A stretch of DNA of 64,000 nucleotides from Spongilla lacustris (lineage: Eukaryota > Porifera > Demospongiae > Spongillida > Spongillidae): the NCBI GenBank assembly GCA_949361645.1, contig OX442431.1, positions 4,089,550 through 4,153,549 on the forward strand, read 5' to 3'. Shown piece by piece: positions 15,688-30,940 of this stretch; the stretch's first letter is position 1; every line of letters begins with the position of its first letter. Below the pieces are notes generated by a model. It did no database searches. It saw only the letters and a program-made list of their open reading frames with translations, and was not told the origin of the DNA. Both the position numbers and the translations under genes were made by a program.

Positions 15688-16594
15688 CTAACATCCAGTT
15701 GCCATCGAACGGGACAGCAGAGCTCTGGCATTTGCTCTAACTAGGACCAGGTTTAACCTGCCATAGAGAGCCGAAGTGGCCTGGGACTTGCAACAATTTG
15801 ATCTAATTGCAAGGCGCGCCGCAAGTCGAGAAAGGTTTGTCTGTGCTTCAGGACCCCAACAACCATAAACCTCAACTGCCAAAGGTACACACACCCACCC
15901 AAGCTCTGAGCACTTTGCGTCATTGCTGGCATGTTTCCTATTTTCAGCCACCTGAGCAGTTGACCCACTTGTCACACTCGCTTCGTGTAGAGTAATTGGA
16001 GTAAGCGGTGATGTGACAGTTATGTCAAAAGCTGCAGGTTTTCCCAGAACCCAATTGGGAACAAGCACGTCAGCTGGCCTTGTACGTAGGGCATCATGTC
16101 CCAAACCACTTCCAACTTCCATTTGGCCACCAATACCAGCCTGCCTACAAGACTCAAAAAAAACATCCCGAACCCTATTGTGGCGAGAGACCACATCACC
16201 ATTATATCGGCAAGTTAGTGCATGATGACCCAAGGGATCTAATGCCAAGGTAAGACAACAAGGGCATTTCTCCCCACTGAATAGGTCAATCCCAAGCCAC
16301 CATTTTATTGCAGTTTGGAACTCTGCAGATTCCAGATGTAGGTTGAGTCCAGGAGATGGCACAACTGAAAGCCATGAAGCAGCATGAGTGGATGCGACTG
16401 ATAATAGCCGTGCCCTATTTGGCAGTGAAGAGGACTCAAAGAGTGCATGAAACTGACTACGTTCAATTCTACTAGAAAGCTCCTTCTGATTTTTGGGTGA
16501 AGTCAGCAATTCATCAGTAGAAGTAACATCAGCTGGAGAAACCAGGCTATTAAACCAATCTATTGATTGGAGAAGATGGTGGCTTGTGTTGATC

Positions 16595-16595
<1 letters not shown>
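15688..16595 (-). pseudogene. 5'-truncated non-LTR retroelement, unit 1 (endonuclease end)
   Basis: An open frame of 273 codons (16509-15688) covers only the C-terminal part of the polyprotein. It shows the alignment block ASWLSVVPSPGLNLHLES, the zinc-knuckle CPCC with GHHALTC, RHNRVRD, and the endonuclease core RPADVLVPNW, GKPAAFDITVTSPL and CVPLAVEVYG. The frame continues left-truncated to about 16595, where an (ATT)n tract begins. It lacks the reverse transcriptase, so it cannot move by itself, although this part is still open. Confidence 0.8.
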
Positions 16596-16640
<45 letters not shown>

Positions 16641-16641
16641 G
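16596..16641. repeat. (ATT)n microsatellite at retroelement junction
   Basis: About 15 copies of TTA/ATT exactly between truncated units 1 and 2. On the minus strand it forms the 3' tail of unit 2. Confidence 0.9.
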
Positions 16642-16665
16642 AGCATACAGAATACGTAATACATT

Positions 16666-17540
16666 TTAAAAAGAAAAGTTCATGTTCAAGTTCTTATTTA
16701 CAATGGCTGCCTGGCAATCATTGCACAGGCATGTTGCCTCTGCAAAGTGATGGCCAATCTTTGGTACAGCTGATTGATAACACACGATTTTGCCTGGCCA
16801 GTGCGACCCGAAATTCTGTCCGCAAGAGTGGCAAAAACTGGTCTGCTCTCCAACCCCCATCCACCAAATGTTTCTACTGCCATGGGTATGAACAGAATGT
16901 TCTGACTGTGAAGGGCCTCCAGATATTTTGTGTTCTTCTGCTCCTCCCTCCAGTGAGCTGCACAAAGCTTTTCGGTCTGTGTGTGGTTGTACAGCAATAG
17001 ATGTGATTGTGTCGGGCTGACCACAGAAATATCTATGGCTAAAGGTTTGCCTGCAGACCAAGTTGGAATAAAAAGGTCAGCTGGTTTCATTTGAGTTCCA
17101 GGGAGGATGTACTGCTTTTCTAACTGAGGAGAAAGAGCAGCTTGGGATGCCATGCCATATATCACATCACGAATAGCGTTGTGTCGACTGATGCGTTCGC
17201 CATTCGTGTTGCAAACTGTGGCATGGTGCCCCGATTTGTCTTGATGTTGGTGACAAAAAGGGCATTCCGAATCCTCTGCGTTTACATCTGCTCCAATCCA
17301 CCACCTGGTCACAGCTCTCCACTCATGAGGAGAGAGATAGAGCCCCAAGTTGTTGTTGGGGACAACCGATAACCAAGCAGAGGCATGTGGGGCTGCTACA
17401 GCAGTAAGCCTGGCTTTGTCTTGTGGAAGAGTGGCAGAAGTACAAAGGGACAAATAAACGGTGTCATCAATAGCAGATGAAAGCTTCTTCTGTGATGGTA
17501 TGCATTGAGAAGAAGTGGCTATGCAATGGATTGGGATCAC
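16666..17540 (-). pseudogene. 5'-truncated non-LTR retroelement, unit 2 (endonuclease end)
   Basis: An open frame of 280 codons (17540-16698) covers the same C-terminal region as unit 1 but is clearly diverged from it. Motifs are ASAWLSVVPNNNLGLYLS, CPFC with GHHATVC, RHNAIRDV, KPADLFIPTW, GKPLAIDISVVSP and IPMAVETFGGWG. It is cut at its 5' side by an (ATT)n stretch and carries an (AAT)n 3' tail. It represents a second family related to units 1 and 3. Confidence 0.8.
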
Positions 17541-17560
17541 TGATTTTATTATTATTATTA

Positions 17561-17568
<8 letters not shown>

Positions 17569-17602
<34 letters not shown>
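17569..17602 (-). repeat. Poly(A) tail of retroelement unit 3 (poly-T on the plus strand)
   Basis: A 34-nt T run on the plus strand, preceded by (ATT)n, lies just beyond the 3' UTR of the element whose ORF ends at 17740. Its position and strand fit a retrotransposon 3' tail. Confidence 0.7.
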
Positions 17603-17607
<5 letters not shown>

Positions 17608-17739
17608 ACATTATTTTATTATTAAAACAAGATACAGGAGAATACAAGAATAGAAAACATTATTAATATGCTACCATCTACAGTAATATTGTTACTATTA
17701 TTATTATTACAAACTACACCTATAGTAATTCTACACTAG

Positions 17740-20700
17740 TCATGAGGGCAGGAGCTCCCTTGCCAAGATGGCTCTGGCAATGGATTTGACCAAAGTCATG
17801 TTCAACCTGCTGTAAATATCCACCAAGACACAAGGTTTGGGAGAGGACAAGATGATTGAAAGGTGGGATGCCAACCTAGAAAAAGTTAGATGAGCCTCCT
17901 TACCCCAATTGCAGAAGGTCTCGACAGCCAGTGGAATGCATGTCCACCCCAACTCCTGACATTTGGGACCATTAGTTAGTATCTTCCGGGCCTCTGCAGC
18001 TGCAGATGCTGCACCAGACATTCGACTAGAGTCCGTCAATATGGCTGGGCAGAGTGGCGATGCTACCGTGACATCAAATGCTGCAGGCTTACCCCTGTCC
18101 CACCCAGCTATGAGCACATCTGCAGGTCTGGAGTGGCTGTGATCTCTGGTAAGACCATGACCCTTCTCTATGCTCACACTCAAATGAGCTCGTCGACAAA
18201 AGTCCACAACAACATCACGCAAGTGATTGTGCCTCACCACCACATCTCCCCCATGAATGCAGGTTACAGCCTGGTGACCCAAGGGATCAAGGGCAACATC
18301 TGTGCAAAGGGGGCACAAAATCCCACCAACACCTACACCTAGCCACCACCTCACTGCAGTCTGGAACTCATTGCACTCCATGTGTAGGCCTAATCCCATG
18401 GAGGGGACCACTGACAGCCATGAAGCTGCATGAGGGGCTGAAGCGGACAGAAGTCGGGCTTTGTTTGCTGGGGAAGATGCCTCCAACAAAGATTTAAACT
18501 GATTTTCATCAATTCTGCTGGACAGCTCTCTCTGAGGAGTGGGAGAAGCAAGAGCAGACTCAGCTGTAATTGTGTGGTGTAAGGAAACCTTGGAGTTATA
18601 AGCTACGACTGCCTGTTGAAGATGGCGATTGTTGGAAAGGCCCAGGCCTGATGACGAAAGTGAGGCAATGAAGGCAGCAGCTGCATGGCAAGAAAGAGAA
18701 CGAAGGCCTAAGCCCCCAAACCTCAAACCAAGCTGAGCCTGTTTCCAGGCACTGTCTGATACTTCAATGGCTGAGCAGAGCACAAAACACTGCCTCACAT
18801 CTTCATCGAAGGACACAAGGGCATCCGAAGCCACACTAGGAGGAGTGACCCTAGTCAGATGAACCATCTTGCAAAAACCTCCACACATGCGCAGCAATGT
18901 GAAGGCCACCTGGAGATCAACTCCTGCCACATCTGCCAGACTTGAGAGCAATTTCTTGGATTCAGCACACTTGTTAGCGATAAATCTGGAACAGTGTAAG
19001 TAGTCGCCAACAGGGGCACCAAGAATGTCTAGGTTTGGTAGAAGCGAGTACTTCACAGCTGGTGGGAAAGAGGTGTTGCCTTTACTGCTGAAGAGCTCAC
19101 ATTTGGCAAAATTGATATGCAGGCCCAGAGAAGGTCCCATCTGTTCAATGATGTGCACGGCCTGCAACACAGCTGGACGGTTTCCAGCTAAGGCACCATC
19201 ATCAAGATACCATGCCTGGTAGAGGAGGTCCCCACATTCTTCATCAGCCTCCACACTGGAAATTAGTTTATGCAAGACAAGTGCAAAAAGTAATGGACCC
19301 AGGGGATCCCCCTGTTGAACCCCTGACTCTGAACTGATTTGTCCTAGGGGGTGCCATAACAAAGGATGTGAACCATAGCACCAAGACACCCAAGGCAAAA
19401 GTTCAGGGAAAAATGTGGCACATTCCTCCACAACTGCCTGTCTGGAGACAACATTAAATGCATTTTTCATGTCTACCTTGAAAGCCACAAAGTCCTCGTC
19501 TAACCAGTGCTCCTCTAGACAGATCCTCAGACCATGAGTGATTTTTTCTGCACCTGCACGACATGCCGCACCAAATTGTAGAGGCTGGAAGACATCAGCT
19601 GCCTTCACCTTCAGCAAAGTGCACATGCACTTCCCTACCAGCCTCCTTAAGGTTTCACCCACAGCAATAGGCCTTATGTCAGGTGCAAACCCCTCCTTGT
19701 TCTTGTTCAGTGCAATTAGACTTCCCCCAGCTAAGAACCGTGACACTGAAGTGGGTGCCTTGCCTGCTGCAAGGATATTGATGACTAACCTAAGGGAGGA
19801 GCATATGGGAGTGGGAAGAGAGATGCTGGCCACATCAAGAAGGTGTTGGACTCGTAAGCCTGAGGGACCGGCTGCAGTGTCTTTGGGGAATGATCGCAGG
19901 ACAGAGAGGATATTGAAATCAGGTTGCAGTGCAATAGACTCCACATTTGGGACAACTGGAACTACAGGTGCAGGGCAGCTGGGGTGTTTTGCTTTCAGAA
20001 GTTGCCATGTGTTCTCGTTGTTTGGAGCAATGCCACTTGACTGCAGGATTCGACAAGCTTTTCCAAACATGCCATATCTGCCCAGTGATATGGCCCTGCC
20101 TACATTGTTACTGTTTTGGCGAATGGAAGAGGTGCTCTGGAGGGTATGGCTGATTGCCCTGCCTTTAGCCAAGTTCCATAGTGGACCCAGGTCATTGTCT
20201 GTCCACATGTTGCATAACACATCCACTGGGAGAGGCTTATCATGACGTCCCTGGCGCCTAAGTGACGGGAGAACACATTTTGGGAGCATGAAAAGTTTGA
20301 GCCATGCCTCCTCAGAATTCTCCTGAATGACACATCGCAAAGCTGATGACAGTGCCCGGGCAAAGGCGGGCCTGGATCTTGATGGAATGAAGCGCAGTGT
20401 TGGCTGGTTAAGAAGGCACACCTCCTCAAATGTAGGGAGACTTGGTTCAAGTTGGTCAGGGGGTGGAAATTCAGCAGGTGGATCATCAGAAGGTGTGGGT
20501 GTGTTTTCTGAGTGTAGGGCAGCTGCTGCCCCTCCAACACATTTTTTGGTATGCGAGGAAAGCCTTGTGTTGGAGACCAGCTGAAAACAGTAGCGGCAAA
20601 TGTAGAGGTCATTCTGCTCCAGCCAGGTGATTGGCACATCACCAGGGAATACACCTTGTGCATGTAGCGTCATGTGGGCTTTCCACATAGAGGGAGCAAT

Positions 20701-20907
20701 TAATTCTGAGCACCCTTCAACAATACACTGCTGCTTCCTTCGCAGCCTAGTTGTTAGATTACTGGGCTGATTATTAAAAAAACAATTAAAAAAAACATAC
20801 GTCCGTGATAAGCGATAATCGTACATTTGGGTTGCCAGTACAATTGTATGTGCTTCCATTCCGGTGGTCACCGGTACCGGTACCGGCGGTCGATAATCTA
20901 GCCACAC
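17740..20907 (-). CDS. Non-LTR retrotransposon polyprotein with YLDD reverse transcriptase and restriction-like endonuclease
   Basis: One uninterrupted frame of 1055 codons. The N-terminal part has a C2H2-like finger (CIVEGC with HMTLH) and a C2HC finger (CRYC with HTKKC). The reverse transcriptase shows FKVDMKNAFN, GVQQGDPLGPLLFAL and the active site WYLDDG (Y567-D570). The C-terminal part has CPLC with GHQAVTC, RHNHLRDV and the endonuclease core RPADVLIAGW then DVTV, with 14 residues between PAD and D. There is no apurinic endonuclease domain. The true start may be internal, because the first roughly 60 codons look like non-element sequence (a Mutator-like end at about 20830). The frame is open, so it is either recent or still selected. 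Clade assignment within the endonuclease-type elements needs a tree. Confidence 0.85.
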   Translation of the reverse strand: MWLDYRPPVPVPVTTGMEAHTIVLATQMYDYRLSRTYVFFNCFFNNQPSNLTTRLRRKQQCIVEGCSELIAPSMWKAHMTLHAQGVFPGDVPITWLEQNDLYICRYCFQLVSNTRLSSHTKKCVGGAAAALHSENTPTPSDDPPAEFPPPDQLEPSLPTFEEVCLLNQPTLRFIPSRSRPAFARALSSALRCVIQENSEEAWLKLFMLPKCVLPSLRRQGRHDKPLPVDVLCNMWTDNDLGPLWNLAKGRAISHTLQSTSSIRQNSNNVGRAISLGRYGMFGKACRILQSSGIAPNNENTWQLLKAKHPSCPAPVVPVVPNVESIALQPDFNILSVLRSFPKDTAAGPSGLRVQHLLDVASISLPTPICSSLRLVINILAAGKAPTSVSRFLAGGSLIALNKNKEGFAPDIRPIAVGETLRRLVGKCMCTLLKVKAADVFQPLQFGAACRAGAEKITHGLRICLEEHWLDEDFVAFKVDMKNAFNVVSRQAVVEECATFFPELLPWVSWCYGSHPLLWHPLGQISSESGVQQGDPLGPLLFALVLHKLISSVEADEECGDLLYQAWYLDDGALAGNRPAVLQAVHIIEQMGPSLGLHINFAKCELFSSKGNTSFPPAVKYSLLPNLDILGAPVGDYLHCSRFIANKCAESKKLLSSLADVAGVDLQVAFTLLRMCGGFCKMVHLTRVTPPSVASDALVSFDEDVRQCFVLCSAIEVSDSAWKQAQLGLRFGGLGLRSLSCHAAAAFIASLSSSGLGLSNNRHLQQAVVAYNSKVSLHHTITAESALASPTPQRELSSRIDENQFKSLLEASSPANKARLLSASAPHAASWLSVVPSMGLGLHMECNEFQTAVRWWLGVGVGGILCPLCTDVALDPLGHQAVTCIHGGDVVVRHNHLRDVVVDFCRRAHLSVSIEKGHGLTRDHSHSRPADVLIAGWDRGKPAAFDVTVASPLCPAILTDSSRMSGAASAAAEARKILTNGPKCQELGWTCIPLAVETFCNWGKEAHLTFSRLASHLSIILSSPKPCVLVDIYSRLNMTLVKSIARAILARELLPS

Positions 20908-23837: not shown

Positions 23838-25300
23838 ACCCATCCTCACATCTCCATCATCACCCTCACACACCACCCTCATCCTAAAACCTTTCATCCT
23901 CACATCCCTCATCCTCACACAAGCTCTCTCATCCTCACACACAACTTCCTCATCCTCACACAAGCTCTCTCATCCTCACACACAATTCCCTCATCCTCAC
24001 ACACAACTCCCTCATCCTCACACACAACTCCCTCACCCTCACACACAATTCCCTCATCCTCACACACAACTCCCTCACCCTCACACACAACTCCCTCATC
24101 CTCACACACAACTCCCTCACCCTCACACACAATTCCCTCATCCTCACACACAACTCCCTCATCCTCACACACAACTCCCTCATCCTCACACACAACTCCC
24201 TCACCCTCACACACAACTCCCTCATCATCACACACAACTCCCTCACTCACACACAACTCCCTCATCCTCACACACAACTCCCTCACCCTCACATACAACT
24301 CCCTCATCATCACACACAACTCCCTCACTCACACACAACTCCCTCATCCTCACACACAACTCCCTCATCCTCACACACAACTCCCTCATCCTCACACACA
24401 ACTCACTCATCGTCACACACAACTCCGTCATCCTCGCACACAACTCCCTCATCATCACACAAGCTCTCTCATCCTCACACACAACTCCCTCATCCTCACA
24501 CACAACTCCCTCACTCTCACACACAACTCCCTCATCCTCACACAAAACTCCCTCACTCTCACACACAACTCCCTCATCCTCACACACAACTCCTTCATCG
24601 TCACACACAACTCTCACATCCTCACACACAACTCCGTCATCCTCACACACAACTCCCTCACTCTCACACACAACTCCCTCATCCTCACACACAACTCCCT
24701 CACCCTCACACACAACTCCCTCATCCTCACACACAACTCCCTCACCCTCACATACAACTCCCTCATCATCACACACAACTCCCTCACTCACACACAACTC
24801 CCTCATCCTCACACACAACTCCCTCATCCTCACACACAACTCCCTCATCCTCACACACAACTCCCTCATCGTCACACACAACTCCGTCATCCTCGCACAC
24901 AACTCCCTCATCATCACACAAGCTCTCTCATCCTCACACACAACTCCCTCATCCTCACACACAACTCCCTCACTCTCACACACAACTCCCTCATCCTCAC
25001 ACAAAACTCCCTCACTCTCACACACAACTCCCTCATCCTCACACACAACTCCTTCATCGTCACACACAACTCTCACATCCTCACACACAACTCCGTCATC
25101 CTCACACACAACTCCCTCACTCTCACACACAACTCCCTCATCCTCACACACAACTCCCTCATCCTCACACACAACTCCCTCATCATGAAACTCATCCTTA
25201 CTCATGCAACCTTCATTATTACTCTCACCTCCCTCATCACTCACACTTTCCTTGTCCTCAATTACATCTCCCTCATCTTTACTCACACTCCCTTATCCTC
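23838..25300. repeat. 1.4-kb minisatellite, CTCATCCTCACACACAACTC unit
   Basis: Dozens of 18- to 21-bp units, CTCATCCTCACACACAACTC or with CACCCTCACAC. Units lack stops, so long frames exist on both strands. A higher-order duplication is visible: the irregular block with GTCATCCTCGCACAC and CACAAGCTCTCTC occurs at 24423 and again at 24882, a 459-bp period. It ends about 190 bp before the U2 gene. Confidence 0.95.
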
Positions 25301-25481
25301 ACACCTCCTTTTTAACATGTTTATGGCCATAGTGCCTCCTCCTCCCCCTTCCGCCAGGGTCATTTCATAACCACAGAAGCCATGTTTATATTTGTTAATT
25401 CTGGCTCCACAACCCATACCCTACCATATGCTTCCTCTTTGGTCCAAAGAATATAAGGCGATGCAAAACTTCTATAAAGTT

Positions 25482-25540
25482 ATCGCTTCTCGGCCTCTTG
25501 GCTAAGATCAAGTAGAAATAACTGTTCTTACGAGTGTAAT
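25482..25540 (+). ncRNA. U2 snRNA, 5' part (nt 1-59), interrupted
   Basis: Begins ATCGCTTCTCGGCC, then TTGGCTAAGATCAAGT, the highly conserved 5' end and stem-loop I of U2. The segment that should read GTGTAGTATCTG (branch-point pairing) is instead GTAGAAATAACTG, one base longer and without GUAGUA. It then runs CTGTTCTTACGAG into the loop of stem IIa, where the transposon enters. The 3' part resumes at 30666. The gene as it stands cannot give a normal U2 RNA. Confidence 0.92.
25520..25540 (+). repeat. Target-site duplication, left copy (21 bp)
   Basis: Bases 25520-25540 are identical to 30645-30665. They correspond to U2 nucleotides of about 38-58 (human numbering). The bases on either side differ, so the length is exact. 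Confidence 0.95.
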
Positions 25541-25640
25541 TGGTTTTGGTTTCAGAGAGTTTCATTAGGATTAGGCTAGGTTAGGTTAGGCCTTTTTGTA
25601 GTTTTTTTTTTCTGATTAGGCCAATAGGTTTAGATAGGTT

Positions 25641-28600
25641 ATGGAAGATGCCAATGATGTATCGGATGGAGCTGATGTGGTGACTGAAGATGACGGGATT
25701 GCTGAAGGCTATGCTCCTGATGAAGCTGTGGAAATTTGTGTCACCCATCCAACGCAGAGCCGTTTCACCTGCCCTGCTCCCAGGTGTCAGCTGACGTACA
25801 CTACCCTACCATCGTTGGTCCGTCACGTGGGTGTTTCACACAAGGCCATGGTCCTCTCCATCACCTTTAAGTGCGCCATGTGCGAGTACACCCACAGCAG
25901 TAAGAAGTCAACATCGCTCCACTTTAGACACGCCCACGGTGTGGCTCCGCCTCCAATGGAAGTGGATGGCTCTAGTGAGAAGGCGTGTCCCTTTTGCTCG
26001 TTGACGTTCCCGTCCAAGCGCTCGTGCTCCAATCACATCCGGGAGAAGCACATGGATGAGGCGTGCTCCCAGCGAGCAAAGGAAGCGGCTGAGAAGGAGG
26101 CGGAGTCTGGCCAGTCGGCAGCAAGGTCAAAGTGGAGCCAGGGGGAAGTGGACCGATTCAAGGCAGCACTGGCGAGGTTTGGCCCAGAAAGCAATATCAA
26201 GATTGCAGCGGAAATAGGTTCCCGCTCTGCCAAACAAGTCAATGTCTATAAGTGCCGGTTTCTAAAGGCTTTCCCTGATTGGTTGAAAGAGAACTACCAC
26301 CCTCCTCCTTCCCAATCACCATCGTCAGCTGTTCCATCGCCGAAAGTGGGGGGACCTATCTTCAGTGCAGCCCCAAGCACCGTGAAGAGGACGGCTGTTG
26401 AAGAGGAAAGGACTCCCTCTCCGCCACCCGTGCCGATATCAGAGAAGGGCGGACAGGCACTTGACCTGTTGGACAGGGTTTTGGAGACTTTGGGAATTGC
26501 TGGGAGCCCAATCCCAACAAGGGCTAGAGTGGTTCGTCCTCCGTCACCTCCGCCAGTTCCATCTGCTGCCATCCCTCTGGCTCCGGCTTCCACCCCACTT
26601 CTGGCTAGGGTCTCCGAAAGGCAGCACTCTAGTCCAGAGGTGGGAGTGGCTTGCCCACCGTCACCTCCGCCAGTTCCATCTGCTGCCATCCCTCTGGCTC
26701 CGGCTTCCACCCCACTTCTGGCTAGGGTCTCCGAAAGGCAGCACTCTAGTCCAGAGGTGGGAGTGGCTTGCCCACCCTCACCACTGCCAGTTCCATCTGC
26801 TACCATCCCTCTGGCTCCGGCTTCCACCCCACTTCTGGCTAGGGTCTCCGAAAGGCAGCACTCTAGTCCAGAGGTGGGAGTGGCTTGCCCACCGTCACCT
26901 CCGCCAGTTCCATCTGCTGCCATCCCTCTGGCTCCGGCTTCCACCCCACTTCTGGCTAGGGTCTCCGAAAGGCAGCACTCTAGTCCAGAGGTGGGAGTGG
27001 CTTGCCCACCGTCACCTCCGCCAGTTCCATTTGCTGCCATCCCTCTGGCTCCAGCTTCCACACCACCACTGGCTAGGGTCTCCGAAAGGCAGCACTCTAG
27101 TCCAGAGGTGGGAGTGGCTTGCCCACTGCCAATTCCATCTGCTGCCCCTCTGGCTCCGGCCTTCATCCCATCTCCTCCAGTGGGTTCAGTGTCTACAACC
27201 AGTGTACAGCCTTCCATCAATCTGGACAATCTGGATGAGACACTGCGCATGCCCTTCCAACAGGAGCTCCTTCCATTCTCTGATAGATTGTTGGGAGAAT
27301 TTGAATGGATAGCCTTTGAGGAGGTCCTACGCCGCTGGTCCACTGTCATTAAGGATGTGGTTTCAGCACATCACAGACGCCCCCCTAATCCCACCTCACA
27401 ATGGGCTCGTAGACGTAGGGGAAGACGTAGCAGACAGCCTGAAGCTCACTCTCCATCCCCACCTTCATCACTTCCTGCTGATCCCTCCCCACATCGTGAT
27501 GAACAGGCAACCCCATCTACTCCCCTGGGCAATCGTGCTTCAGGACGCGCTCGTCATGCGGCTAAGGCAAAGTATTTACAACGGTTTTACCATACCAACC
27601 CTGGTGCCTGCATGCGGCGCCTACTAGAGAATGGACCTCCTGTTTATTGCAAGATTGCTGAGGCAGACTTAGTTGGTCACTTCACAGCTGCCATGGCTGA
27701 ACCTCCTCCAGTGGGCCCTCCTCCCACATGGCTGTTTTCTCATCAAGGTGAAAACTCCACCCTTGGCGGTGTGCAGACGAATGTGGAGGGTGACATTCTC
27801 CATGACCCATTCACTCCTGAGGAGGTGTTGGCTCAGTTCAGACGGACCAAGAGGTCTGCCCCAGGTGTTGATGGGATCTCCTATGCCAACTGGAGATGGG
27901 TGGACCCTAGAGGATTGATCCTGGCCACCATTTACAACATCTGCAGGATCAACACTAGGGTCCCGTCTCCTTGGAAACACTCCGCTGTCACCCTGATTCA
28001 CAAGGGTGGTGACACTGCTTCAATCCGCAACTGGAGACCAATCAGTCTCCAGCTTACTATTTACAAGCTATACTCAGCCCTCATTGCCAGAAGAATTGCT
28101 TCCTGGGCCATCACTACATCTGCCTTCTCACCAGCACAGAAGGGTTTCCTGGGTTTTGATGGTTGTACAGAACACAACTTCTTGTTGCGCTCTATGTTAA
28201 CTGATTCCAGGCGCCACAAGCAGAACCTTATCCTAGTGTGGCTTGATCTAAGGGAGGCATTTCCTTCAGTACCACACGATCTGATGAGACTCATGATGGA
28301 GAGACTGGGTTTGTCTGGCTCAATCATCCAGACAGTAAGTGATATCTACTCCAACGCTTCAGTGTCCATCCGTACGGGCAGAGACTCTTACACCTCTCAC
28401 ATTCCTCAGAAGCGTGGAGTGAAGCAAGGATGTCCTCTTAGCCCCATCCTATTCAATATCGTCTTGGAAGGCCTCCTCAGACACCTATCAAACAGTGAAG
28501 CTGGATACACCCTGGCAGGAAGCAAGCTTAACTCTCTTGCATATGCTGATGACATATGTGTGACGGCATCCACCAACGACGACGTGCAAGAGCTTCTGGA

Positions 28601-30260
28601 TCGCTGTGTGACCTTCACAGAGTGGGCAGGATTTAAATTCAATGCCAAGAAGTGTGGGTCTCTTTGCCTTGTCAACCGGTCATCGCCCATCTATGTGGAC
28701 CATCTTTTCTCCCCACGTCTGGGAGCTGACAACATCCCTGCCCTCACATGGGATGAGCGGTACAAGTACTTGGGGTGCCCCATTGGTGCAAGCAGGGACA
28801 ACTCGGATGACCTTGCCACACTCCGTGACTCCCTATTGCGGGACACTTCTGTCATTTTTCAATCCCCGCTGGCAGAGTGGCAGAAACTGGATGCCTTCCG
28901 ACGTTTCCTTTTCCCAAGGCTAACGTTTGCTCTGAAAGTAATACTCCCGGGTCCCACCTGGTGCAAGAAACTGGACACCTCTCTTCGCGCCATCATCAAG
29001 CGTGGGCTGCGCATCCCCCAAAGAACCTGCACCCAGTACTTCTACCTCCCGCAGGCCCTTGGAGGGATGGGCATCCCCAGTGTGCTGGATGAATCACACG
29101 TGGCCAGGGCAGCACAGGCCTTTAAATTCCTGGCTGACACCAGAGATCCAGTGATACGCCAGGTGGCCTTACACCAGCTTGGAGAGGCGGTCACTAAACG
29201 TGCTCGCCACCTTGATCCATCTAACCCTGAACACCTGGCTGAATTCCTGAATAGCACAGCACATCCTGGAGAAGGACGTGCAGGTGACCTTTGGAGTCTT
29301 TGGAGCTCGGCTCGTGCTAGCCTTGCAATCGGAGGTGCATTCATCTCCTTAACACAGGATTCTGCCACCCTGCAAACAGACCATCATCATATCACATGGG
29401 TCAAGCGCAAGTTAGCATCTCAGGCGATGAAGGAGACCATTGGGGCACGTCACCTTGCCGCTATTAAAACGTCCAGTGATCAAGGAAGGGCATTCAACTC
29501 CCTATCACTGCATGCAGATTCCTCCTTTTTCACATATTCTGGGGCCTTTCTAACCTTCCCGCAGTACAGGTTTATTCACAAGGCCAGGCTGAACCTGCTA
29601 CCGGTGCGCACCGTCCAGGCCCGCTGCCACCAACATGTCCCAACCACCCAATGTCGCATCTGCGGGAGGGTGCCAGAGACGTTAGCCCATGTTCTTAATC
29701 ACTGCCACCGCAATCTGGGGATGATCCGGGACAGACACAATTCAATCTTGGAGCGAATAGTGAGGGCAGTCCCAGAGTCTGTGGGGACAAAGATGAAAGA
29801 ACAACCCCAACCTGGGACCTCGGGGGATAACAGACCTGACCTGACCATCATATCCCCTGACGAGTCCTCAGTCATCATCGTGGAGGTCAGTTGTCCATTT
29901 GAGGGCTCCCCCACAGCTCTGGAGGATGCAGCACGCACCAAGTTGGAGAAATACGAGCCCCTTCGGCAGACTCTTCTTCAAAGGTACACTTCTGTGGAGG
30001 TCCTCCCCTTCATTGTTGGCTCTCTGGGGAGCTGGTACCCTCCCAACGACAGGGTCCTCTCCTCCCTCCGTATTGGGCACAGATATGCCAGTTTAATGCG
30101 CCGTTTGTGTGTGATATCTGCCATCTCTGGGTCCCAGAGCATTTGGTACCACTCAATGTGTACTCGTCGTCGTGGCAACCCAGATGTTGGAGCTGCTGAG
30201 TTACCCATTCCACCAGCAGAGCTACCCATGGCTTCCCCTCACCTGTCTCCCTGCCTGTAA
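25641..30260 (+). CDS. Utopia-like retrotransposon polyprotein (zinc fingers, Myb-like, RT, restriction-like endonuclease)
   Basis: 1539 codons without a break. Three C2H2 fingers at about residues 44-67, 78-99 and 116-137 and a Myb-like segment (WSQGEVDRFKAALARFG) at about 165-215 probably bind the target DNA. A proline-rich linker at about 300-500 is a 39-residue repeat. The reverse transcriptase runs from about 745 to 1010, with APGVDGI, LDLREAFPSVPH, QGCPLSPILF and the catalytic AYADD (967-971). A CCHC knuckle CRICGRVPETLAHVLNHC starts at 1338, followed by RHN. The nuclease core has RPDLTIISPD at about 1398-1407, then VEVSCPFEG, that is PD, 14 residues, E. No cysteine-protease domain was noticed. 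All catalytic motifs seen are intact, so activity is possible. Confidence 0.93.
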   Translation: MEDANDVSDGADVVTEDDGIAEGYAPDEAVEICVTHPTQSRFTCPAPRCQLTYTTLPSLVRHVGVSHKAMVLSITFKCAMCEYTHSSKKSTSLHFRHAHGVAPPPMEVDGSSEKACPFCSLTFPSKRSCSNHIREKHMDEACSQRAKEAAEKEAESGQSAARSKWSQGEVDRFKAALARFGPESNIKIAAEIGSRSAKQVNVYKCRFLKAFPDWLKENYHPPPSQSPSSAVPSPKVGGPIFSAAPSTVKRTAVEEERTPSPPPVPISEKGGQALDLLDRVLETLGIAGSPIPTRARVVRPPSPPPVPSAAIPLAPASTPLLARVSERQHSSPEVGVACPPSPPPVPSAAIPLAPASTPLLARVSERQHSSPEVGVACPPSPLPVPSATIPLAPASTPLLARVSERQHSSPEVGVACPPSPPPVPSAAIPLAPASTPLLARVSERQHSSPEVGVACPPSPPPVPFAAIPLAPASTPPLARVSERQHSSPEVGVACPLPIPSAAPLAPAFIPSPPVGSVSTTSVQPSINLDNLDETLRMPFQQELLPFSDRLLGEFEWIAFEEVLRRWSTVIKDVVSAHHRRPPNPTSQWARRRRGRRSRQPEAHSPSPPSSLPADPSPHRDEQATPSTPLGNRASGRARHAAKAKYLQRFYHTNPGACMRRLLENGPPVYCKIAEADLVGHFTAAMAEPPPVGPPPTWLFSHQGENSTLGGVQTNVEGDILHDPFTPEEVLAQFRRTKRSAPGVDGISYANWRWVDPRGLILATIYNICRINTRVPSPWKHSAVTLIHKGGDTASIRNWRPISLQLTIYKLYSALIARRIASWAITTSAFSPAQKGFLGFDGCTEHNFLLRSMLTDSRRHKQNLILVWLDLREAFPSVPHDLMRLMMERLGLSGSIIQTVSDIYSNASVSIRTGRDSYTSHIPQKRGVKQGCPLSPILFNIVLEGLLRHLSNSEAGYTLAGSKLNSLAYADDICVTASTNDDVQELLDRCVTFTEWAGFKFNAKKCGSLCLVNRSSPIYVDHLFSPRLGADNIPALTWDERYKYLGCPIGASRDNSDDLATLRDSLLRDTSVIFQSPLAEWQKLDAFRRFLFPRLTFALKVILPGPTWCKKLDTSLRAIIKRGLRIPQRTCTQYFYLPQALGGMGIPSVLDESHVARAAQAFKFLADTRDPVIRQVALHQLGEAVTKRARHLDPSNPEHLAEFLNSTAHPGEGRAGDLWSLWSSARASLAIGGAFISLTQDSATLQTDHHHITWVKRKLASQAMKETIGARHLAAIKTSSDQGRAFNSLSLHADSSFFTYSGAFLTFPQYRFIHKARLNLLPVRTVQARCHQHVPTTQCRICGRVPETLAHVLNHCHRNLGMIRDRHNSILERIVRAVPESVGTKMKEQPQPGTSGDNRPDLTIISPDESSVIIVEVSCPFEGSPTALEDAARTKLEKYEPLRQTLLQRYTSVEVLPFIVGSLGSWYPPNDRVLSSLRIGHRYASLMRRLCVISAISGSQSIWYHSMCTRRRGNPDVGAAELPIPPAELPMASPHLSPCL
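26534..27130 (+). repeat. 117-bp coding minisatellite in the retrotransposon ORF
   Basis: About five units of 117 bp (39 codons), recurring at 26534, 26651, 26768, 26885 and 27002, with a shortened copy after 27119. Each encodes SPPPVPSAAIPLAPASTP followed by LLARVSERQHSSPEVGVAC. The third and fifth copies carry substitutions and the last lacks most of its start. Confidence 0.9.
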
Positions 30261-30644
30261 GGAGAGTAGCTCTGAACACTGATATTCCTGCTGATATACC
30301 TGCTTCGTTGGAGAAACCTCCTGTATCTCCACCATGCCAGTGACTATTGGAACGTAGACCTTTCTTCTTTTCTGCGACTCAATCCTTGACTTGACCCCCC
30401 CCCCCCCCCCCCCCCCTCCCAAAACCGACTATAATTCAACCATGACTTCAGTCCACAGCGGCAATCCCTGCATACTGTTTTAAGAACTATTGAACTTTTC
30501 GTTTTCACCCGCTCTTGTGCATGTACATGTTTTGTGTGTGTTTTCCCGACTTATGTTGAGGGGCTCCCCAGCGATGGGATTAAAAACGGCCCTCATGGTG
30601 TTTGTATGTACTTTGTGCATGCCAATCCCATTATGAAAGATTTG

Positions 30645-30665
30645 AACTGTTCTTACGAGTGTAAT
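30645..30665 (+). repeat. Target-site duplication, right copy (21 bp)
   Basis: Identical to 25520-25540. It directly precedes the remaining U2 sequence and restores the register of the gene. Confidence 0.95.
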
Positions 30666-30790
30666 ATCTCGTATGAGGACAATGTCCTCACGATATTACA
30701 TCAATTTTTGAAACCTGGGACTCGGAGTGAAGCTTGCTTCGCCGGCCCCACGGGTTGCCCCAGTATTGCACTACCTCTGGGTGTGGCCCA
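30666..30790 (+). ncRNA. U2 snRNA, 3' part, interrupted
   Basis: Continues U2 from the stem IIa loop: ATCTCGTA, the IIb hairpin GAGGACAATGTCCTC, the Sm site CAATTTTTGA, stem III with GAAGCTTGCTTC, and stem IV with CCCAGTATTGCACTACCTC then TGGG. With the 5' part it sums to about 184 nt, against 188 in human. The 3' end is approximate. Stem sequences differ from human but pair well. Confidence 0.88.
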
Positions 30791-30940
30791 TCCCCCTTGG
30801 GGGAACACAAAGCAATGAAAGATCAGACTTAAGCAAGGTGCAATGTTTAGTACTTGTGGGTCCTTTTGTTCCAGTGTGTAATTCCAGACCACACCTATTT
30901 GTTTCACTATGATCACCTGTGCCACCTCCTAAGGTCATCC

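Follow-up and report, generated by a model that had tools for sequence, protein, structure and literature searches.

Our analysis of a 64 000 nucleotide (nt) stretch of the genome of the freshwater sponge Spongilla lacustris (the window; contig OX442431.1, here C18:4089550-4153549) revealed a complete non-long terminal repeat (non-LTR) retrotransposon inside a U2 small nuclear RNA (snRNA) gene. With a probability of about 0.93, this is a U2-specific element of the Utopia kind that carries a restriction-like endonuclease (RLE) and has been active recently in this sponge. Its Myb domain, its sponge host and the two cleavage spacings found in the genome would make it a variant of that known kind. 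An initial annotation of the sequence had already described a full-length, U2-specific RLE-type element flanked by a true target duplication. The genome-wide comparison upholds this description, as its best-preserved relatives share the U2 base at which it ends.

Insertion in a U2 snRNA gene

Both the 5' end and the remainder of the interrupted gene, which had been reported as readable, were recovered by Rfam, the former at 25482-25596 (44.7 bits, E 8.5e-8, slightly below the gathering score of 46) and the latter at 30625-30796 (97.7 bits, E 2.2e-18). The 5104-bp insert with its intact open reading frame (ORF) of 1539 aa was likewise reproduced (Table 1), as was the 21-bp duplication of U2, AACTGTTCTTACGAGTGTAAT, which is exact at 25520-25540 and 30645-30665. 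When the element was excised in silico and the flanks were joined, the sequence showed 190/190 identity with an intact U2 gene (L013, C18:4434880), and the 5' flank of the interrupted gene is similar to the 5' flanks of intact U2 genes. A search of the whole genome (248.6 Mb, 51 contigs) for U2 nt 41-59 found 33 exact and 3 one-mismatch places and, with the reversed control, 0. Chance is excluded by the identity of the joined flanks to an intact gene together with these 36 places against none.

It is highly improbable that the two U2 pieces came together by chance or through misassembly, or that an old insertion was carried along in a segmental duplication. U2 copies and joined elements are indeed spread over four contigs (C1, C11, C17 and C18) and some arrays look duplicated, but the 21-bp duplication is exact, the empty site is perfect, full-length copies occupy differing U2 genes and a copy of family E has its own target variant. 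The insertion in a U2 snRNA gene with an exact target duplication is real.

Two further full-length copies of family A, to which the window element belongs, are 99.7 % (L041) and 99.3 % (L044) identical to it. All three have open frames and are located in U2 genes of differing sequence, and therefore appear to be separate, recent insertions, which points to recent activity of the family.

A 21-bp minisatellite of 61 copies (window 23905-25184) lies immediately 5' of the U2 gene. The 1 kb 5' of U2, which includes the end of this minisatellite, also matches flanks of several intact U2 genes.

Target specificity across the genome

Searching the genome with the reverse transcriptase (RT) provides a test that is independent of U2. 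This search gave 99 rows, about half of them with <35 % identity and belonging to other RT families. The 11 best matches, free of stops and with 43-100 % identity, comprise three of family A, five of family B and single members of C, D and E; in every one of them the 3' end meets U2 at nt 39.

The 3' untranslated region (UTR) was searched with a query that also contained 146 nt of U2. Of the resulting 40 rows, 19 include the element 3' UTR; of the others, two hold the poly-C tract only, and the remainder are U2 alone or fragments (L077, L079). The idea that copies of the 3' UTR all end at the same U2 base was largely confirmed: in 14 of the 19 U2 comes next, and in two (L074, L075) U2 nt 39-42 is followed by a new element. 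Three diverged copies, which are weighed below, are followed by ≤6 nt of U2. Ten more 3' ends, found through the adjoining U2 (five of family B, L033 and L081-L084), bring the total to 29, and recognisable U2 follows 24 of them.

The site census agrees with this. The 33 exact sites divide into 11 intact U2 genes, 13 places where an element 3' end precedes the rest of U2, three where U2 nt 1-59 runs into an element 5' end, and six tandem joins; in L081 and L082 the upstream 3' end was assigned by resemblance. Of the three one-mismatch sites, L083 is a tandem join, and L076 and L084 are decayed 3' junctions; the decayed U2 copies L031 and L033 fall outside the census. Specificity for U2 is very high, and we do not claim that it is absolute.

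One fragment, L079, has antisense U2 nt 1 to about 35 joined directly to sense U2 from ~nt 59, and resembles a rearranged U2 pseudogene.

Cleavage pattern and tandem re-insertion

The 3' junction of the window element falls between U2 nt 38 and 39 and, because this junction is set by the first nick, the first nick is placed at nt 38/39. This equals the first-strand site published for both Utopia and Keno (PMC4640811), in line with the earlier proposal that the U2 target fits Utopia. In L046 the target variant has a C at nt 39 and the same C stands at the 3' junction, which is consistent with a first nick at 38/39. The initial annotation had placed the entry point in the loop of stem IIa, equivalent to human U2 nt 58; this is correct for the second, top-strand cut (nt 58/59) and incorrect for the first nick.

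The 5' junction lies after U2 nt 59 in families A, A2, D, E, F, G and H, and both ends are seen for A, D and E, which therefore have a 21-bp duplication. Four copies of family B with both ends seen (L037-L040) have U2 nt 1-42 upstream and U2 nt 39 onward downstream, and their duplication is therefore at most 4 bp. One genome thus combines one first-nick site with two second-cut distances, and would allow a clean comparison of the determinants of second-strand cleavage. For Utopia, a 20-bp duplication is reported in reptile families and none in arthropods (PMC4640811), whereas the sponge genome holds families with 21 bp and with at most 4 bp duplicated.

The start of U2 is kept upstream at 8 of 17 resolvable 5' junctions (the window, L041, L046, L037-L040 and a 5'-truncated copy in L045 with nt 1-40). 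The other nine lie behind an already inserted element, seven via U2 nt 39-59 and two via nt 39-42, and for this reason the U2 sequence 5' of the nick seems to be dispensable for targeting. Since U2 from nt 39 to its end stays intact 3' of each copy, a used site can be hit again. An occupied gene may therefore still be a landing site, which may help to explain how the elements persist with only ~11 intact target genes. Persistence on few targets is a puzzle raised for Utopia by Kojima and Jurka (PMC4640811), in whose account tandem insertions in U2 are reported for Nasonia.

By analogy with R2 biochemistry, the protein would bind U2 DNA via its zinc fingers and Myb domain, and the RLE would nick the bottom strand at nt 38/39. 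Reverse transcription would then be primed at this nick and start at the 3' end of the element RNA; a top-strand cut 21 nt downstream (after nt 59) would follow and give rise to the duplication. Transcription probably starts from the retained U2 promoter and passes through U2 nt 1-59 into the element.

Protein domains and relationship to known elements

The domain motifs named in the initial annotation (three C2H2 fingers, a Myb-like domain, an RT with AYADD, a CCHC knuckle and PD-x14-E) were all recovered, by pattern search and, for Myb, by structure modelling. The fingers lie at aa 44-67, 78-99 and 116-137, the RVT_1 match of the ORF has an E value of 2.8e-33 (Pfam) and AYADD occupies aa 967-971 (28539-28553). 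The Pfam Myb match of family A (16.5 bits) is below the cut-off of 24.4; however, the region is predicted to form three helices with a confidence (pLDDT) of about 90 and matches c-Myb/SANT, and the U2-inserted family B exceeds the cut-off with 27.3 bits. The model thus indicates that family A carries a Myb domain besides three zinc fingers.

In overall plan, including the zinc-finger and Myb N-terminus, the protein resembles that of R2, and it aligns to 9nl2, 9nl3, 9dou and 8gh6. The RT and RLE regions align with all three R2 structures shown; for the zinc-finger/Myb block the alignment is clear with two of these (27-28 bits) and weak with the third (10 bits). The two best Foldseek matches of the N-terminal model are also R2 proteins. 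This likeness could reflect an R2-lineage element that was retargeted from 28S ribosomal DNA (rDNA) to U2 and kept its R2-like N-terminus as an ancestral trait. Such an origin would account for the three fingers and Myb as in R2, and for R2 proteins being the best matches in the Protein Data Bank (PDB) by both sequence and structure. To our knowledge, however, the PDB holds hardly any RLE element other than R2, and R2 would hence be the best match in any case.

RT phylogenetic inference was based upon 54 rows, for which 45 of 107 RT regions cut from 120 proteins were used, with three R2 sequences from the PDB. Five U2-inserted sponge families formed one clade of 30 rows with Ephydatia and other proteins (97/100). 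The R2 sequences formed a separate branch (96/87), apart from the sponge, turtle and arachnid rows, and the turtle, scorpion and spider proteins were placed on the non-R2 side of the tree, though not within the sponge clade. Over aa 680-1500 the closest named protein belongs to Ephydatia muelleri (73 %), also a freshwater sponge, and one further entry is identical. Families A/C/D/E and family B each have Ephydatia relatives, and so at least two U2-specific lineages seem to have been maintained in parallel.

A 2026 survey of R2 places Myb-bearing sponge elements near the root of the R2 tree (PMC13188248), as retargeting would have it, yet the insertion base found here matches the one described for Utopia in oomycetes, an amoeba and animals (PMC4640811). 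With its target in U2 rather than 28S rDNA and its RT outside the R2 rows, we consider the element unlikely to stem from the R2 lineage.

Utopia was first described in 2015 as a U2 snRNA-targeting group of the NeSL clade (Kojima and Jurka, PMC4640811). Like Utopia, the sponge element has one ORF encoding zinc fingers at the N-terminus, RT, CCHC and RLE, and it shares the 3' junction at the human-equivalent U2 nt 39 and a low target copy number (PMC4640811). It differs in its host, as Porifera do not appear among the Utopia hosts in Table 1 of that paper, and in its Myb domain, a term absent from the main text (PMC4640811). NeSL sensu stricto of nematodes has a spliced-leader target and an N-terminal cysteine protease, whereas the target here is U2 and no protease was found among the Pfam matches of the ORF.

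Keno, of the Tx1 clade, shares the U2 base at the 3' junction, with an identical 3' flanking U2 sequence (PMC4640811), and a Keno-like element could therefore leave the same downstream junction. Keno has an apurinic-like endonuclease, though, and this type is not represented among the Pfam matches of the sponge ORF, the C-terminal CCHC and PD-x14-E region of which aligns to the R2 RLE. A Keno-like identity is consequently barely conceivable.

Several points weigh against a Utopia-type element with strict preference for U2. Three of the 29 3' ends (the diverged L072, L073 and L078) continue into ≤6 nt of U2, and many decayed copies lie outside the sample, such as C11:4223764, the 12th RT match, which has stops. 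The tree tool flagged long branches for R2Bm and the outgroup. The tree was built without NeSL, CRE, HERO, YURE and R5, and the clade name rests on the target and the non-R2 placement; likewise, the turtle and arachnid proteins are presumed to be Utopia from the taxa named in PMC4640811. Finally, the Myb domain departs from the operational definition of the 2026 survey, in which absence of Myb is used as a criterion for Utopia (PMC13188248), a criterion not set in PMC4640811.

That survey classes its Myb-bearing sponge elements as non-site-specific (PMC13188248). They resemble the element described here in their zinc fingers and Myb, their sponge host and their location outside 28S rDNA, and their flanks are said to resemble those of Utopia. 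The Myb-bearing families A and B, in contrast, are in U2 wherever well-preserved copies were examined, the two sets being compared by description. The surveyed elements may include, or be kin to, families that are tightly tied to U2, and the combination of zinc fingers, Myb and U2 is a candidate intermediate for the question of a possible descent of R2 from a Utopia-like element.

The U2 snRNA of the sponge

None of the 11 intact U2 genes (L009-L019) has the canonical branch-site recognition block GUAGUA. Seven (on C11, C17 and C18) read AAGAUCAAGU-AGAAAUAA-CUG, compared to AAGAUCAAGU-GUAGUAU-CUG in the Rfam consensus, and those on C1 have AGAAAAA (3) or AGAAAACA (1) at this block. In all 11, AAGUAGAAAUAACUG or close variants replace AAGUGUAGUAUCUG. 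The canonical U2 25-mer, allowing up to 3 mismatches, does not occur in the assembly, and the altered U2 gave 0 matches in prokaryotic and viral contig collections. The U12 of this genome is presumably canonical.

GUAG, which pairs with CUAAC, is retained two bases nearer the U2 5' end, and branch points may for this reason keep CUAAC. If the altered U2 is the expressed one, the candidate branch-point reading is UUUCUAAC versus UACUAAC. CTAAC was seen in two short gaps (L052, L054) of 20 between CCT exon matches, a small sample in which some gaps are perhaps not introns.

U2-complementary 5' leaders

Ten 5' leaders were compared to U2 nt 1-40 by duplex energy against 400 dinucleotide shuffles. 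Those of families D, E, F, G and H were better than all 400 (z -4.6 to -7.4); for family B none of the 400 was as good for the first 60 nt, and 4 were for the whole UTR. Complementarity is therefore present in 6/10 leaders, those of B and D-H; families E, F and G are closely related to one another. Over U2 nt 11-35, 24 of 25 nt are paired in D-G, 22 in H and 21 in B, and the exact 16-mer TCTACTTGATTTTGGC has three genomic occurrences, all in element leaders. In B and D-H, pairing is 2.0-5.0 kcal/mol more favourable with sponge U2 than with canonical U2, and these two U2 sequences differ outside the branch-site loop too. Across these six leaders there are 9 distinct G-U positions versus 6 distinct unpaired ones over nt 11-35, which is only suggestive of selection at the RNA level.

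Control targets were weaker than U2 nt 1-40 in each of D-H. The GC-rich control U2 nt 121-160 came close for E (-44.2 vs -48.4) and H (-41.4 vs -42.6) because of poly-G tracts in the leaders, and in the whole-UTR test the control U12 nt 81-120 was stronger than U2 nt 1-40 for B (-33.1 vs -30.8) and for A.

These leaders may act as target mimics, a proposal that we make tentatively and at somewhat less than even odds. The RNA segment would pair with the U2 helix-I/branch-site region left upstream of the insertion, forming a long helix in read-through RNA that the U2-reading zinc fingers and Myb could bind or that could set the RNA 5' end. The better fit to the altered U2 of the sponge than to canonical U2 suggests co-evolution with a U2 of unusual branch-site loop. 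Neither 'antisense' nor 'complementary' occurs in the main text of PMC4640811, and a literature search, with supplements and most subscription papers outside it, found no report of leader complementarity.

A U2-complementary leader was rejected for the window element, as 96/200 shuffles were as good, and in the dinucleotide test 217/400 for the whole UTR, 175/400 for the first 60 nt and 77/400 for the last 60 nt. By plain alignment, 9/500 mononucleotide shuffles were as good (L041, 32/500; L044, 5/500), and a decayed remnant is therefore possible. The complementarity was not significant in A2/L082 (154/400) or J/L075 (first 60 nt, 152/400; whole, 107/400), and I/L074 was borderline (21 and 31 of 400).

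An HDV-like (hepatitis delta virus-like) or other known 5' ribozyme, as in R2, was also rejected, as Rfam gave only U2 and four C/D small nucleolar RNA (snoRNA) matches at 25400-25900, none of which reached its gathering score (sR2 was the best snoRNA, with 26.8 of 42 bits). No known ribozyme or RNA family was found by Rfam up to E 1 in L070, L071 and L081-L083.

Feature coordinates and other elements

Table 1. Positions of the element, its domains and its target in the window, with junction and leader segments at related loci
Feature	Position	Strand	Basis
U2 snRNA gene, 5' fragment (nt 1-59 of the species' U2)	25482..25540	+	Rfam U2; identical to nt 1-59 of intact genes L009-L015
Target duplication, upstream copy, 21 bp (U2 nt 39-59)	25520..25540	+	Exact repeat
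Complete Utopia-type (probable) non-LTR retrotransposon, family A, 5104 bp	25541..30644	+	Full-length copies L041, L044; junctions
Element 5' UTR, 100 nt	25541..25640	+	U2 complementarity not significant here
Single ORF, 1539 aa	25641..30260	+	Stop-free open frames of 1540 in three copies
Three C2H2 zinc fingers (aa 44-137)	25770..26051	+	Pattern; structure model; Foldseek match to R2 proteins
Predicted Myb/SANT domain (~aa 163-213)	26127..26279	+	Sub-cut-off Pfam match; three-helix model
Pro/Ser-rich in-frame tandem repeat in linker of ORF, 117 bp (39 aa), 5.1 copies, 96 % alike	26527..27126	+	Tandem Repeats Finder
RT core (aa 719-1150)	27795..29090	+	Pfam RVT_1; R2 structures; tree
CCHC knuckle CX2CX8HX4C (aa 1338-1355)	29652..29705	+	Pattern
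RLE motif PD-x14-E (from aa 1399)	29835..29888	+	Pattern; alignment to R2 RLE
Element 3' UTR with poly-C tract and block GAGGGGCTCCCCAGCGATGGG..., ending ...GAAAGATTTG	30261..30644	+	Block common to sibling families
Target duplication, downstream copy, 21 bp	30645..30665	+	Exact repeat
Rest of U2 gene (nt 60 to end)	30666..30796	+	Rfam U2; joined flanks = intact U2 L013
Tandem arrays, elements joined by U2 nt 39-59 or 39-42	L044 2200-2320; L045 4300-4400; L070, L071, L074, L075, L081-L083		
Leader segments complementary to U2 nt about 11-35, families B and D-H	L037 from 4592; L045 from 4365; L046 (minus) from 6304; L070 from 154; L071 from 110; L083 from 181		

A hairpin in the 3' UTR had weak covariation support, with a covariation term of -0.29 and changes in both partners of a pair at 1 of 11 pairs.

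Elsewhere in the window, ORFs of a different RT family lie on the minus strand at 15688-20907, with a YLDD box and an RVT_1 match of 57 bits. They also have a sub-threshold MYST-like zinc finger and repeated C-terminal 'PADV...GKPAAFD' pieces that are nuclease-like in look.

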